NCBI GenBank assembly: GCA_007693745.1
Contig: REDA01000074.1
Coordinates: 1-50,995, forward strand
DNA length: 50,995 nucleotides
Source of the DNA: Balneolaceae bacterium
GTDB taxonomy: Bacteria > Bacteroidota > Rhodothermia > Balneolales > Balneolaceae
Direction of reading: 5' to 3'
Part shown: in pieces, positions 23,686-27,058 of the stretch
Position numbering within the stretch: the first letter of the stretch is position 1
Layout: every line of letters begins with the position of its first letter
Made by a program: the position numbers and the translations under genes
The notes under the pieces: model-generated
Told to the model about the DNA's origin: nothing
The model's database searches: none
The model's input: only the letters and a program-made list of their open reading frames with translations

Positions 23686-23896
23686 ATCTTTAAACTGAAG
23701 ATCTATTGATTACGAACTCTAAATATCCCCTTTAGATTACAGATTCACAACTATAAGCCTGATCTCTTTTCATCCTCTGCAGCTACAGTTATTCAAATGC
23801 CGGCAGCAGTAATATCTTTCCAAATCAGCCGCTATCTTGAAACAATGAACTTTTACAATCAGGAAGTTGCCGTTTTATCGTTTCAATACCTATATT

Positions 23897-23916
23897 ATAC
23901 ACACTTAAATGTGTAT
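23897..23916. promoter_or_regulatory. near-perfect 20-bp palindrome over the start of the metal operon
   Basis: ATACACACTTAAATGTGTAT: 18 of 20 positions are symmetric (one mismatched pair). It overlaps the start codons at 23909 and 23915 of the His-rich protein, a position where a bound repressor would block transcription or initiation. Length and context suit a Zur/Fur-type or MntR-type metalloregulator; no regulator gene is in the window. Confidence 0.45.
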
Positions 23917-24217
23917 GAAATTAACAGCCGAAACATATCGTCCCCTTCTGTTTGCTGCAGTTCTTCTGCTCGCACAGTTTCTTTCTGTGGCTCATTACCA
24001 CGAGGATCATCACGATTGCAGTATTACGGCCTTCGAAGAAGTTCATGAGGACAACTGTATTCTATGTGATGTTACGGTCTCTTTTTTAAACACTTCCAGT
24101 ACAGATCAAACAACCGGTACTCTCACCACCGGAAACGTTATTCTGCCCTTCTGCCAGTTTCTGAACTCAGAAATTTCTGACTGCGGTCTGGGTCGTGCCC
24201 CTCCATTCTTCTCATAG
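23909..24217 (+). CDS. small His/Cys-rich exported protein, metal-binding candidate
   Basis: 102 residues (100 if started at 23915). A hydrophobic N-terminal segment (YRPLLFAAVLLLAQFLSVA) is followed at once by a metal-ligand cluster AHYHEDHHDC and later EVHEDNCILCDV, giving five His and CxxC within about 25 residues. The rest is low-complexity Thr/Ser-rich and ends without a known domain. First gene of an operon with a DHDHG lipoprotein and a ZnuD-like TonB receptor, so it may be a periplasmic or surface zinc/copper carrier. I do not recognise a named family. Confidence 0.7.
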   Translation: MCMKLTAETYRPLLFAAVLLLAQFLSVAHYHEDHHDCSITAFEEVHEDNCILCDVTVSFLNTSSTDQTTGTLTTGNVILPFCQFLNSEISDCGLGRAPPFFS

Positions 24218-24305
24218 AGTTATCCATTCTTTGCTACTGCATTCTTTTGAATCCAATGGAAGGATTGCAGAAATCATTCTTATCACTCATTAACTCTCTG
24301 ATACA

Positions 24306-24785
24306 ATGAAGATCTATAGATTTATTTTGCCACTTTTTCTCTTTTTTACACTTACATCAAGCCTGGTTTTAACAGGATGTGGTTCAGATCATGACCATGG
24401 CCCGACACCGGTTGGAATCGTTCTCTCCGCCGGCGGAACGGATCTGGCCATACAGGAAGGCACCACCATCACCTATCCGACAGGCGCTGCAGACGCAATC
24501 GAAATCCAAACGGAAGAAACGGTATCACCAGTAACCGTGACCTTTCTGATGGAGGATGGAGAACGCTTTACTCCGGATGTAAACGATGGCTATTCACTCC
24601 GGTTTTCAGCTTCCAACAGCTCAGTTATCAGCGTTGTGCACCCGCTGACAAACCAGTGGACTTTCTCTCTCGAGGGTGTTCAGGCGGGCGAATCTGCTGT
24701 GAATTTTCAGCTGTGGCATGTCGGGCATTCCGACTTTGAGTCCAGAGATTTCACAATCCGCGTAGTAACTCCGGCCACTCAGTAA
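24306..24785 (+). CDS. lipoprotein with N-terminal DHDHG motif, metal-uptake accessory
   Basis: 159 residues. Lipoprotein signal (LFFTLTSSLVLTGC) followed by GSDHDHGPTP, a likely metal-binding tail right after the lipid anchor. The body (~35-155) appears beta-rich and Ig-like (VTVTFLMEDGERFTPDVND, WTFSLEGVQAGESAVNFQLWHVGH) and ends with more His (WHVGHSDF). Located between the His-rich protein and the TonB receptor, 5 nt from the latter, so it is probably an outer-membrane-attached metal-binding partner of that receptor. Function is inferred from ligands and context only. Confidence 0.75.
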   Translation: MKIYRFILPLFLFFTLTSSLVLTGCGSDHDHGPTPVGIVLSAGGTDLAIQEGTTITYPTGAADAIEIQTEETVSPVTVTFLMEDGERFTPDVNDGYSLRFSASNSSVISVVHPLTNQWTFSLEGVQAGESAVNFQLWHVGHSDFESRDFTIRVVTPATQ

Positions 24786-24790
24786 CAACT

Positions 24791-27058
24791 TTGAAAAATC
24801 CGGCGCTACCCATACTTATTTTTCTGTTATTGGGATCCCTTTTTATTTCCGGCAGAGCAGATGCCATGAGTGAACTTTCCGGTTCACTCTCCGGATATCT
24901 TACGGATCGCGATACAGGTGAACCTGTTGCACATGTCTATCTTCATCTTGAGGAGATCAACAGACACACCTATACCGACAGAAACGGCTTTTTTTCGATG
25001 CCGAATCTGCCTGCCGGCAGGTACACCCTGAAAATGCACAGGCTCGGCTATTCGACCCTTACAAAAAGTGTCGAAATCACCGGCCAGGATGAGTTGGAGC
25101 TACAGATTACTCTGTCACCATCACTCATTCAGGGTAGCACGATTGAAGTTTTTGCTGCATCCGATGGGTTTACCGGAAGCAATATCGAGCATGCTTCTAT
25201 AAAATTAACCGGATCCGCACTCAGAAGTGCTCTGGGAACTACACTGGCAGAAACTCTCTCGAATCAGCCTGGGTTCGATATGCGTACGATGGGTGCTGCC
25301 CCCGCCAGGCCTGTGATACGCGGACTTGGTGACGAACGGGTACTGATTCTTCAGGATGGAGAGCGTACCGGAGACTTTTCAGCCTCTTCTGCAGATCATG
25401 CTGTAACGATTGATCCTGCCGGTGCAGATGAGATCCAGATTGCCAGGGGACCTGCTGCCCTGCTCTACGGATCCAATGCGATTGGCGGAGTCATTAATGT
25501 AGTACGAAACCAGATTGCGACCTCCGTGCCCGCAGCAGTAAATGGCACAGTTACTCTTCAGGGTTCGTCTGTAAATGACGGCGGCTCACTTGGCGGTTCA
25601 CTTTCTGTTCCTCTGAATCAGAGTGTTTTGAACCTTGATCTTAACGGTCGTATAGGCAGAGATTTCCGGTATCCCGGCGGGATAATCGAAAACTCCGGTT
25701 ATCTGACATCCAGCAATGCTGCCAGTTACAGTATGATCAGACCATGGGGTTACAGCGGGTTTTCAGTATCCACCTATTTGAGCGATTACGGAATACCACC
25801 GGATCCGCAGGGCGGGCATCCGGATGGTGTGGATATTGAGATGCGAAAATTTCAGATCGACAACAGAAGTGAAATCGTCCGCGATTCCGGATTTTTCAAA
25901 CTGTTAGAGTCTCATTTGTCGTATAAATACTACAACCACAAAGAGTTTGAAACATCCGAGATCATCGGTACTGAATTTACCCGCAACTCTCTGAATCTGA
26001 CTGTTAAAGGCCATCATCAGAACATCGGTTTTTTTAATGATGGAGTGATCGGTTTGTGGGCCGGGTTCGATGATACCTTTATCTTTGATCGCTTCAATAT
26101 TGAGACCAACGGAATCAGCGGAGCTCTCTATTCTGTTCAGGAGGCCGATATTGGTTCACTGCATATTGAACTCGGCATCCGGGCCGAAGCCAGCAGTGAA
26201 ATACCAAAACAGGAAAAACCAACCTCGAGAATTGGAAATATCAGGCAACGCAGCTTCTTCGGTATCGCTTCTTCCGGTTCGTTGATCTACCATTTCGGCA
26301 GAGGACTCTATCTCGGAGGAGTCGTGATGCATTCCTACAGGCCCCCAACAGCAAATGAGCTCTTTTCAGAGGGGCCGCATATCGCTGCATACGCATTTGA
26401 AATCGGAAATCCAGATCTGAACCCGGAGAGAGGACTGGGGAAGGAACTTTTCATCCGTTATAAAACATCAGCCGTAAATCTTGAATTCTCCGCTTATCAC
26501 AATCAATTCAGCAATTATATCTACCCGGCAGATACCGGACGGGAAAATCTTTTCTTTCCGGGGCTGAACGATTTCCAGTTTGAAGCAGCACGTGCCCGGA
26601 TATATGGACTGGAGGGTCAGGGAGAATTTCATCTGCTCCCAAGGCTGATCGCTTTTGCGACAGCTTCCTATACAGTAGGCAAAAGAGATGATCCGGGAAC
26701 TGAAAATACAGCGAACAGTTTCAGCAGCCAAAGTCACCGTTATCTGCCCATGATCCCTCCCCTGAGGCTCACAACCGGTCTTAGATATGTTGAGGGGCCG
26801 TTCTCAGTTGGCGGAACCTATCGTTATTCATCCACCCAGGCCAGAACTGCCCGATTCGAAGAGCCGACGGAATCCTATAACCTTTTTCACTTAAATGCTC
26901 AGTACAGGATTACCACGCAGTCCAACCTTCTGCACACCTTTTCATTGAACGTGCAAAATCTGACCAATGTCCGTTACAGAAACCATCTCTCCAGGCTGAA
27001 AGAGATCTTCCCTGAACCGGGAAGAAGCATCAACCTTCTCTACAAGCTCTATTTTTGA
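24791..27058 (+). CDS. TonB-dependent receptor, ZnuD-like (zinc)
   Basis: 755 residues, outer-membrane beta-barrel transporter. Signal peptide (LPILIFLLLGSLFISGRADA), a carboxypeptidase-regulatory-like domain (~30-110, GYLTDRDTGEPVAHVYL, PAGRYTLKMHRLGYS), plug (~125-240) and barrel to a C-terminal aromatic residue (LLYKLYF). The plug sequence RPVIRGLGDERVLILQDGE, then ASSADHAVTIDPAGADEIQI and RGPAALLYGSNAIGGVINV, matches the pattern of ZnuD-type zinc receptors, including the conserved D-H. The start codon is TTG at 24791; no ATG fits the signal. It closes the putative metal operon. Other metals (Cu, Ni) remain possible. Confidence 0.85.
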   Translation: MKNPALPILIFLLLGSLFISGRADAMSELSGSLSGYLTDRDTGEPVAHVYLHLEEINRHTYTDRNGFFSMPNLPAGRYTLKMHRLGYSTLTKSVEITGQDELELQITLSPSLIQGSTIEVFAASDGFTGSNIEHASIKLTGSALRSALGTTLAETLSNQPGFDMRTMGAAPARPVIRGLGDERVLILQDGERTGDFSASSADHAVTIDPAGADEIQIARGPAALLYGSNAIGGVINVVRNQIATSVPAAVNGTVTLQGSSVNDGGSLGGSLSVPLNQSVLNLDLNGRIGRDFRYPGGIIENSGYLTSSNAASYSMIRPWGYSGFSVSTYLSDYGIPPDPQGGHPDGVDIEMRKFQIDNRSEIVRDSGFFKLLESHLSYKYYNHKEFETSEIIGTEFTRNSLNLTVKGHHQNIGFFNDGVIGLWAGFDDTFIFDRFNIETNGISGALYSVQEADIGSLHIELGIRAEASSEIPKQEKPTSRIGNIRQRSFFGIASSGSLIYHFGRGLYLGGVVMHSYRPPTANELFSEGPHIAAYAFEIGNPDLNPERGLGKELFIRYKTSAVNLEFSAYHNQFSNYIYPADTGRENLFFPGLNDFQFEAARARIYGLEGQGEFHLLPRLIAFATASYTVGKRDDPGTENTANSFSSQSHRYLPMIPPLRLTTGLRYVEGPFSVGGTYRYSSTQARTARFEEPTESYNLFHLNAQYRITTQSNLLHTFSLNVQNLTNVRYRNHLSRLKEIFPEPGRSINLLYKLYF

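Follow-up and report, generated by a model that had tools for sequence, protein, structure and literature searches.

In the portions of the open-access literature available to us, metal sensing by a nascent chain has been demonstrated experimentally for copper only, and a search of that literature for arrest leaders that respond to zinc found no such report. RAPP is described there as an experimentally established ribosome-arrest motif, and RAPP, RSPP, and RDPP as arrest or arrest-permissive motifs. According to the available part of its report, CruR from Bordetella pertussis, a DUF2946 protein, is a copper-sensing leader with a spacing of 45 between its CxxC and RAPP motifs, and the involvement of Rho is demonstrated (PMC9426467). 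CutF from Rhodobacter capsulatus, also a DUF2946 protein, is presented in the accessible text as an exported nascent metal sensor with a CxxxC motif, a C-terminal proline-rich motif, and a multicopper oxidase encoded downstream; a downstream mRNA stem hides the initiation site of this next gene, which copper switches on (PMC9973294). A bulk survey lists small secretory ORFs with C-terminal RAPP-like motifs upstream of TonB-receptor genes in Gram-negative phyla, and its available text contains no lipoprotein, spacing rule, operator, or zinc, with zero occurrences of the word (PMC12992588).

The locus described here lies in a stretch of 50,995 nucleotides from a Balneolaceae bacterium (contig REDA01000074.1), referred to as the window. 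Coordinates are those of the forward strand, on which all oriented features lie. From the sequence, we consider it fairly likely that positions 23915–27058 form an operon for zinc uptake whose first gene encodes a metal-sensing leader of the translation-arrest type. Like CruR, as far as the available part of its report goes, the leader is the first gene of a TonB-receptor operon, is predicted to be exported, and combines CxxC, fixed spacing, and a C-terminal RAPP three residues from its end, with C exceeding G around the leader end and in the intergenic stretch. It differs from CruR in its spacing of 42, in the proposal of zinc rather than copper, in the invariance of HxH in its family, in having no significant Pfam match, and in the lipoprotein gene that comes between leader and receptor, which in the CruR operon are directly adjacent. 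With the CutF system as described in the accessible text, it would share export of a nascent metal sensor, a C-terminal proline-rich motif, and an mRNA stem that hides the next gene's initiation site, but the stem predicted here joins the leader's own last codons with the next start codon.

Results

A small putative leader with fixed motif spacing

The earlier note on this DNA described three genes under a palindrome, with metal-binding-like motifs in the first two products, and all of these elements are present at the positions given below. The first gene encodes P0001, a predicted exported protein of 100 residues (23915–24217, with an alternative start at 23909) that contains AHYHEDHHDC and CILC. 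HYH (H27 and H29; 23993–24001) is invariant in our alignment A1 of the family, as is C48 of the putative metal-binding motif CILC (C48–C51; 24056–24067). The putative ribosome-arrest motif RAPP (24194–24205) follows 42 residues past CxxC and three residues before the stop codon. Export is predicted from a hydrophobic N-terminal helix, beyond which the structural model has low confidence (pLDDT 40–57 from residue 31).

The bodies of related leaders have diverged, with 14–25% identity to the window protein (about 20% across Balneolaceae), but the hydrophobic N terminus, HxH, a Cys or CxxC, and a C-terminal R[AS]PP are kept; the second Cys is missing in some. Among 68 unique ORFs found with a hidden Markov model of the N-terminal half only, which makes no use of the C terminus, 65 have [RK][ASDGE]PP within their last 10 residues, and in 55 of these 65 the motif is followed by exactly three residues. 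The gap from CxxC to RxPP is 42 residues in 45 of 49 leaders, and that from HxH to CxxC varies from 21 to 27, with one outlier of 52. All six arginine and all four proline codons are in use.

With the same N-terminal-half model, a leader was found upstream in 27 of the 40 loci recruited through the lipoprotein, window included, and was absent at the other 13; each of the 27 leaders has an RxPP-type motif. The lipoprotein is present in 41 of the 58 genomes searched, including that of the window, and both counts point to more than a chance arrangement. Of the genome-contig loci, likewise recruited through the lipoprotein alone, 23 of 24 have a leader, and the 24th (L214) starts near a contig end. 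Loci L133–L172 and L181–L183 were recruited with a profile that included RAPP, and their counts are biased upward.

P0001 has no Pfam match at E values up to 1, DUF2946 (PF11162) included. The remark in the earlier note that the small protein fits no recognised family finds its best answer in the DUF2946/RAPP class, of which two traits were seen: CxxC and C-terminal RAPP at near-fixed spacing, and a small exported-type ORF heading a metal-related operon. Two of 26 members of the leader family match DUF2946 weakly (best E 0.17), and three of 26 match the NCBIfam model LIC10965. A second leader from the same genome, P0004, matches DUF2946 with E 6.7e-4 and 20.8 bits, under the cutoff of 23.7. 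Because the body is diverged, the CxxC-42-R[AS]PP-3-stop arrangement is fixed, and the model is of low confidence past the N-terminal helix, P0001 is best read, on sequence grounds, as a regulatory leader (uORF) of the CruR type and not as a chaperone.

The lipoprotein and the receptor

The second gene (24306–24785) encodes P0002, a lipoprotein of 159 residues with the sequence LTGC-GSDHDHG and an Ig-like/BIG-type sandwich. Its HVGHSD (H138, H141, and D143; 24717–24734) is an invariant HxxHxD and a putative metal site. The best fold match is a nuclear-pore domain (Z 10.7), with SbsC S-layer domains at Z 9.5–9.8, and, the Ig-like sandwich being a common one, the fold was not used to assign a function.

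The third gene (24791–27058, TTG start) encodes P0003, a ZnuD-type TonB-dependent receptor of 755 residues. Among the NCBIfam models listed, its best is ZnuD at 202.8 bits, which does not reach the cutoff of the curated ZnuD family (NF038289, 950 bits); the heme/hemoglobin, siderophore, and B12 models score 144.6, 98.2, and 55.2 bits, and the TIGR01778 copper receptor model 52 bits. Neither the siderophore nor the cobalamin model scores best, in keeping with the ZnuD-like receptor proposed in the earlier note. Among solved structures the best sequence match is ZnuD (4RDR, 1.1e-33), and the residues that bind zinc in neisserial ZnuD are retained at all four positions, with D202-H203 (25394–25399) equivalent to Asp99-His100, E385 (25943–25945) to Glu340, and H530 (26378–26380) to His499. 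All 71 close receptor rows carry the D/H/E/H ligands; two of these rows are the window's own protein. P0003 thus resembles ZnuD of Neisseria meningitidis, as described in the available part of its report, in its four ligands, but differs in an extra N-terminal CarboxypepD_reg-like domain, in the adjoining lipoprotein gene, and in its score under the NCBIfam cutoff (PMC4557270). ZnuA was not found in the window's own genome; therefore, a pairing with ZnuABC is not claimed for the window, and ZnuA was set aside as an inner-membrane partner.

Operator, promoter region, and related operons

TATATT (23891–23896) is a probable -10-like promoter element, a role suggested by its recurrence: when the genus leaders are aligned, TATATTC or TATATTA stands at the same position, even in some without an operator. 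It precedes the palindrome of the earlier note, ATACACACTTAAATGTGTAT (23897–23916), in which 18 of 20 positions are palindromic by inspection and the half-sites, the same as those of the genus operator, are arranged outward, and which extends over the start codon (ATG at 23909 or 23915). At up to three mismatches, ATACACACTTAAATGTGTAT has one further match in the genome, a poor one at C71:10125 that adjoins a better operator at C71:10115. The genome-wide search gave no second good site for the exact palindrome, and the operator common in the genus, of the form GTGTAT...ATACAC (AGTGTATATTCGAATACACACT), was found only through relatives. Its conserved right half-site, ATACACACT, lies at 23897–23905, but the window has only a degenerate left half, making the palindrome a non-canonical form of this operator. 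The strict form is not in the window and is present upstream of 11 of 73 leaders. Pattern matches at G023:C6, G018:C34, and G008:C137 were rejected as operators, there being no metal operon at those places, and the GTGTATTTTTATACAC/GTGTATAAAAATACAC sites of L190, L192, L193, and L194 fall within ribosomal-protein-like genes and were read as coding coincidences.

The genus operator is common to two operons, the leader operon and one with MerC, RHH, MacB, and DUF3299 genes, and occurs in 19 of 24 RHH/MerC operons. In the window's own genome the second operon comprises a RAPP leader, MerC, an RHH-like protein, an ABC ATPase, a MacB/FtsX permease, and a DUF3299 protein. Related leaders also sit before COG0523 genes (ZigA model, 5.8e-87) and znuABC-like genes. 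Taken together, the place of the operator ahead of the MerC/RHH/MacB/DUF3299 operon and that of related leaders ahead of COG0523 and znuABC-like genes make zinc the probable metal of the window operon. The earlier proposal of a zinc-type uptake operon is supported by the four retained ZnuD ligands together with the shared operator and the zinc-linked neighbours in relatives. With a single Fur-family gene in the genome, no ZnuA found there, and a palindrome of non-canonical form, Zur is at most a candidate regulator of the window operon.

RNA between the leader and the lipoprotein

The 88-nt region between the leader and lipoprotein genes (24218–24305) has 19 C to 11 G, and C exceeds G in 53 of 55 such regions compared with 138 of 236 controls. 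The leader tail and stop codon (24206–24223) are predicted to form a duplex with the lipoprotein start region (24290–24313, containing ATG 24306) at -13.0 kcal/mol, a modest stem (z -2.05) that becomes weaker once longer RNA is folded. Over 55 loci, the leader tail prefers its own lipoprotein start to the starts of other loci (z -9.7, 0 of 5000 permutations), with none of five controls significant. In sister genera, predicted pairing between the last leader codons and the start codon of the lipoprotein is kept although the sequences change; within the window's own genus it does not reach significance (18 loci, z -0.61, 1354 of 5000 permutations). This duplex was the only RNA test to give a signal, solely outside the window's genus, and no common structure across the region was seen in 18 folded loci. 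Ahead of COG0523 genes the pairing was absent in all four cases tried, and ahead of other genes the outcome was mixed.

Discussion

In the mechanism that we propose, the leader would be made with an export signal, and its HxH and CxxC would bind metal while the chain is still attached to the ribosome. When metal is scarce, the ribosome would stall at the C-terminal RAPP, cover the leader's final codons, and so leave the mRNA accessible for expression of the lipoprotein and receptor, because the start codon of the lipoprotein would be freed (at loci with the stem), because Rho would be blocked, or for both reasons. Zinc on the nascent chain would relieve the arrest, the ribosome would depart, and the downstream genes would be turned off. 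The lipoprotein probably presents a site for metal close to the membrane, and import would fall to the ZnuD-type receptor. At the level of the genus, a transcriptional repressor on the GTGTAT...ATACAC operator could provide a second layer. Computation supports the motifs, their fixed spacings, the receptor ligands, the shared operator, and, in sister genera, the pairing of leader tail and lipoprotein start. From these we infer the arrest, zinc as the ligand, the direction of the response, and which of the mRNA mechanisms operates in the window itself.

In the earlier note, P0001 was instead one half of a two-part capture system: a zinc chaperone or zincophore-like protein, soluble in the periplasm, that would pass metal to the lipoprotein and receptor. 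Such a role would suit its hydrophobic N terminus, HxH, CxxC, and His-rich N-terminal half, as well as its placement within a metal operon, but not a body that is almost unconserved (14–25% identity to the window protein), in which only the ligand and RxPP positions and the distance between them are kept, nor a model of such low confidence (pLDDT 40–57 from residue 31). COG0523 GTPases are cytoplasmic, and they are among the unrelated genes that related leaders precede. The signature of the family matches a regulatory leader like CruR, and we set the chaperone reading aside as improbable given the fixed motif spacing, the unconserved body, and the varied downstream genes. Slightly less improbable, but still unlikely, is a leader responsive to copper or another transition metal at the head of an operon that imports this same metal: CxxC and HxH are also able to bind copper, known DUF2946 leaders are copper-responsive, and cysteine-type CutF-like leaders are reported mostly upstream of copper genes. 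Against copper stand the four ZnuD zinc ligands of the receptor, its 52 bits with TIGR01778 against 203 for ZnuD, and the operator and leader common to MerC/MacB/DUF3299/COG0523 operons. The leader might also monitor export capacity, as SecM does, and not metal, a reading that we hold to be very improbable. A hydrophobic N terminus followed by a C-terminal RAPP is the layout of a Sec-monitoring arrest peptide, but the genes behind the leaders are metal-related and not sec genes, and export monitoring would need neither HxH nor the first Cys, both of which are invariant in A1.

Returning to the metal-sensing arrest leader, we advance a bolder version only tentatively, as one that may well prove wrong: P0001 would be the first zinc-sensing arrest leader; its nascent chain would read zinc through HxH and CxxC just outside the ribosomal tunnel, and the ribosome, halted by RAPP on the final leader codons, would open the start codon for the lipoprotein and ZnuD receptor. 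Combined with the genus operator, to which a zinc-ribbon RHH repressor might bind, this would give Balneolaceae a zinc regulon of two layers that does without Zur. Zinc sensing with an exact ruler of 42 residues, together with the sister-genus stem, would offer a compact model of a metal acting on a stalled ribosome. Fast-evolving, unannotated "hypothetical proteins" of Bacteroidota would then become regulators, which counsels caution in reading such proteins as metal chaperones.

The second operon of the genome invites a further comparison, with PA4066 of Pseudomonas aeruginosa, which we take to be a DUF3299 protein like that encoded in this operon. The Zur-controlled PA4063–PA4066 cluster, as described in the available part of its report, likewise has a split MacB ATPase and permease, but the Balneolaceae operon, in which no PA4063 homologue was seen, differs from it in encoding MerC, an RHH-like protein, and a RAPP leader (PMC11481552). 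The host is a salt-loving bacterium.

A family of putative arrest leaders

A palindrome (23897-23916), a small ORF of 100 residues (23915-24217, with an alternative start at 23909), a lipoprotein gene (24306-24785), and a TonB-dependent receptor gene (24791-27058) are all present on one strand, with gaps of 88 bp between the small ORF and the lipoprotein gene and 5 bp between the lipoprotein and receptor genes, bearing out the operon proposed in the earlier note. Relatives identified by a scan of genome contigs are nearly all Balneolaceae or Balneolales, including Rhodohalobacter and Balneola. Across 26 members of the small-protein alignment, identity to the window's protein, P0001, is 14-25%, and only H27, H29, C48, R94, P96, and P97 are invariant.

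An HMM made from the N-terminal half of the protein only, to guard against circularity, matched 68 unique ORFs when run against the loci that had been fetched, and 65 of them have [RK][ASDGE]PP within their last ten residues (39 RAPP, 21 RSPP, 3 RDPP, 1 KSPP, and 1 KAPP). The three others comprise two ORFs that stop before the motif position (L156 and the second ORF of L148) and one with KSPP 11 residues from its end (L154). The motif also occurs in 16 of 808 other ORFs, which, on our reading of the list, look like additional leaders. Many of the fetched leader loci were recruited with a profile that contained the motif; with recruitment by the lipoprotein only, a leader was found in 27 of 40 loci and the motif in all 27 of those leaders, while in the named-genome set 23 of 24 loci have a leader. 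The distance from CxxC to RxPP is 42 in 45 of 49 leaders (44 in two and 45 in two), the stop comes three residues after the motif in 55 of 65, and the distance from HxH to CxxC varies from 21 to 27 with a single outlier of 52. The Arg and Pro codons of the motif vary freely, and therefore selection acts on the peptide.

Ribosomes stall at RAPP-like sequences, which are underrepresented in proteomes and close small secretory ORFs located 5′ of various genes, those for TonB receptors included (PMC12992588, PMC10987492). In the model described for CruR, a DUF2946 leader with the arrangement CxxC-45-RAPP and three more residues, the ribosome stalls without copper, and copper relieves the stall to allow Rho termination before the TonB receptor gene (PMC9426467). 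The gap of 45 in CruR compares with 42 in P0001, and both have three residues after RAPP. P0001 does not match the DUF2946 Pfam family, and P0004, the second RAPP leader of the window's own genome, gives a near match under the cutoff. Distances to the P-site assume a stall at the third motif residue, as described previously (PMC10987492). The nearer CxxC cysteine is then 45 residues away (96-51) and the first histidine 69 residues away (96-27). As the ribosomal tunnel is ~30-40 residues long, the CxxC would sit just outside it.

The low-identity body, the fixed CxxC-42-RxPP ruler, and the arrest-leader precedents argue against the earlier suggestion of an unrecognised partner protein; the small protein is most likely the operon's regulator, one that is read as a nascent chain while the ribosome is making it. 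The arrest class was known before, as were its members linked to TonB. In the open-access papers searched, we found no description of a zinc-linked Balneolaceae leader family with this ruler, lipoprotein target, and stem.

Predicted pairing of the leader tail with the lipoprotein start

A stem between the leader tail and the lipoprotein start could hold the next gene; in CutF, a stem is described that covers the ribosome site of the next gene (PMC9973294). The tail, which begins at the third codon of the motif and extends 12 nt beyond the stop, was tested against the lipoprotein start region in 55 pairs, giving a mean of -9.30 kcal/mol with its own partner and -6.33 with permuted partners (z -9.7, 0/5000). 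Five control segments had no significant pairing excess (z -1.2, -0.8, 1.75, 2.31, and 0.1). The energy is -10 or lower in 26 loci, and the arms vary between loci with pairing retained. In other genera of the family (28 loci) z is -9.67, with 21 loci at -10 or lower, and in nine remaining loci it is -2.17 (81/5000), whereas in the 18 loci of the window's genus pairing is not significant (z -0.61, 1354/5000). The window's own duplex is -13.0 (z -2.05), and its start codon pairs with the tail at a probability of ~0.1-0.2 when at least 241 nt are folded. Support for the stem is therefore good in the sister genera, whereas in the window itself the stem is no more than a possibility. For the window's genus, Rho could provide an alternative to the stem, acting at the intergenic stretch, where C exceeds G at 53 of the 55 loci, compared with 138 of 236 upstream regions used as controls; the mean skews are 0.355 and 0.053, respectively.

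Evidence for zinc

Among solved structures, the top sequence match of the receptor is ZnuD (1.1e-33). The ZnuD model is also the top NCBIfam match, at 202.8 bits and under its 950-bit cutoff, followed by heme (144.6), siderophore (98.2), B12 (55.2), and copper (52.4) models. The zinc ligands of ZnuD, cited for the 4RDR receptor as Asp99, His100, Glu340, and His499 (PMC4557270), all map to the receptor (D202, H203, E385, and H530) with a single numbering offset, the only one that fits among the range tried. These columns read DHEH in 71 of 71 alignment rows with E < 1e-100, two of which are the window's own receptor, and are mixed in 14 weaker rows (EHEH 5, RHSH 3, DHEN 3, DHEH 1, DHEE 1, and YYAP 1), which indicates that the ligand site belongs to this receptor group and not to TonB receptors generally. 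The lipoprotein matched no Pfam family. AlphaFold2 predicts an Ig-like fold for it with confidence (mean pLDDT 90.7). Its invariant residues in 25 sequences include C25, H138, H141, S142, and D143, with H138, H141, and D143 making up an HxxHxD motif that is a putative metal site.

A related leader lies upstream of a COG0523 GTPase in four loci (L175, L201, L202, and L206), with the L175 GTPase matching the ZigA model at 5.8e-87, under cutoff. In L171 the leader is upstream of a metal ABC transporter for which the top models are those of the zinc proteins AztC, AztA, and AztB, none above cutoff, and the L172 leader directly follows an ABC-3 permease gene and one of the Fur family. Receptor ligands and gene neighbourhoods thus point to zinc, and the metal was guessed well in the earlier note. 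However, ZnuA was not found in the window's own genome, the one Fur-family gene there has no assigned specificity, and the window's operator is imperfect, all of which count against a simple zinc picture.

A shared operator and a candidate repressor

The genus operator, GTGTAT-N-ATACAC, is upstream of 11 of 73 leaders, every one in the window's genus. As AAGTGTGTAT-N4-ATACACACT, it precedes 19 of 24 assessable RHH/MerC operons (four more were not assessable), whereas 314 kb from other loci contain a single match. The own-genome RHH/MerC operon encodes MerC, an RHH-like CxxC protein, an ABC ATPase, an FtsX/MacB permease, DUF3299, and P0004 (4973-5350 of locus L200). A MacB-type cluster of like make-up is described as under Zur control in Pseudomonas and elsewhere (PMC11481552). 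The RHH-like protein (L200:2150-2473, or 10649-10975 of contig C71) has 108 aa and a CxxC...CxxC arrangement, and its operon is the one that the shared operator heads. It is weakly similar to NikR (E 0.024), and its orthologue in genome G008 to RHH_1 (E 0.13). Found in 25 of the 28 genomes that belong to the genus and in 2 of the 30 that do not, the protein is a candidate repressor. About 460 nt after P0004 is a gene that by eye resembles iron/manganese superoxide dismutase (L200:5819-6580), in the place where relatives have the COG0523 GTPase.

Other leader types

G008 has an additional RAPP leader (L201:4791-5132) immediately 5′ of a TonB receptor that neighbours the COG0523 operon. Another TonB receptor, in L148, L154, L158, and L163, is preceded by a leader of a second type, with KSPP at its end; the gap of this leader is again 42 where complete (L154, L158, and L163), and the receptor's ligand columns read RHSH in L148, L154, and L163. 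In another family of the phylum (L168, L169, L181, and L182), leaders with SLRAPP or ALRAPP and a gap of 45, that of CruR, precede TonB receptors, with lipoprotein-like genes at some of these loci. Relatives of the leaders may exist beyond Bacteroidota; NCBIfam LIC10965, named for a Leptospira protein, is matched by 3 of the 26 aligned leaders (best E 9.9e-7).
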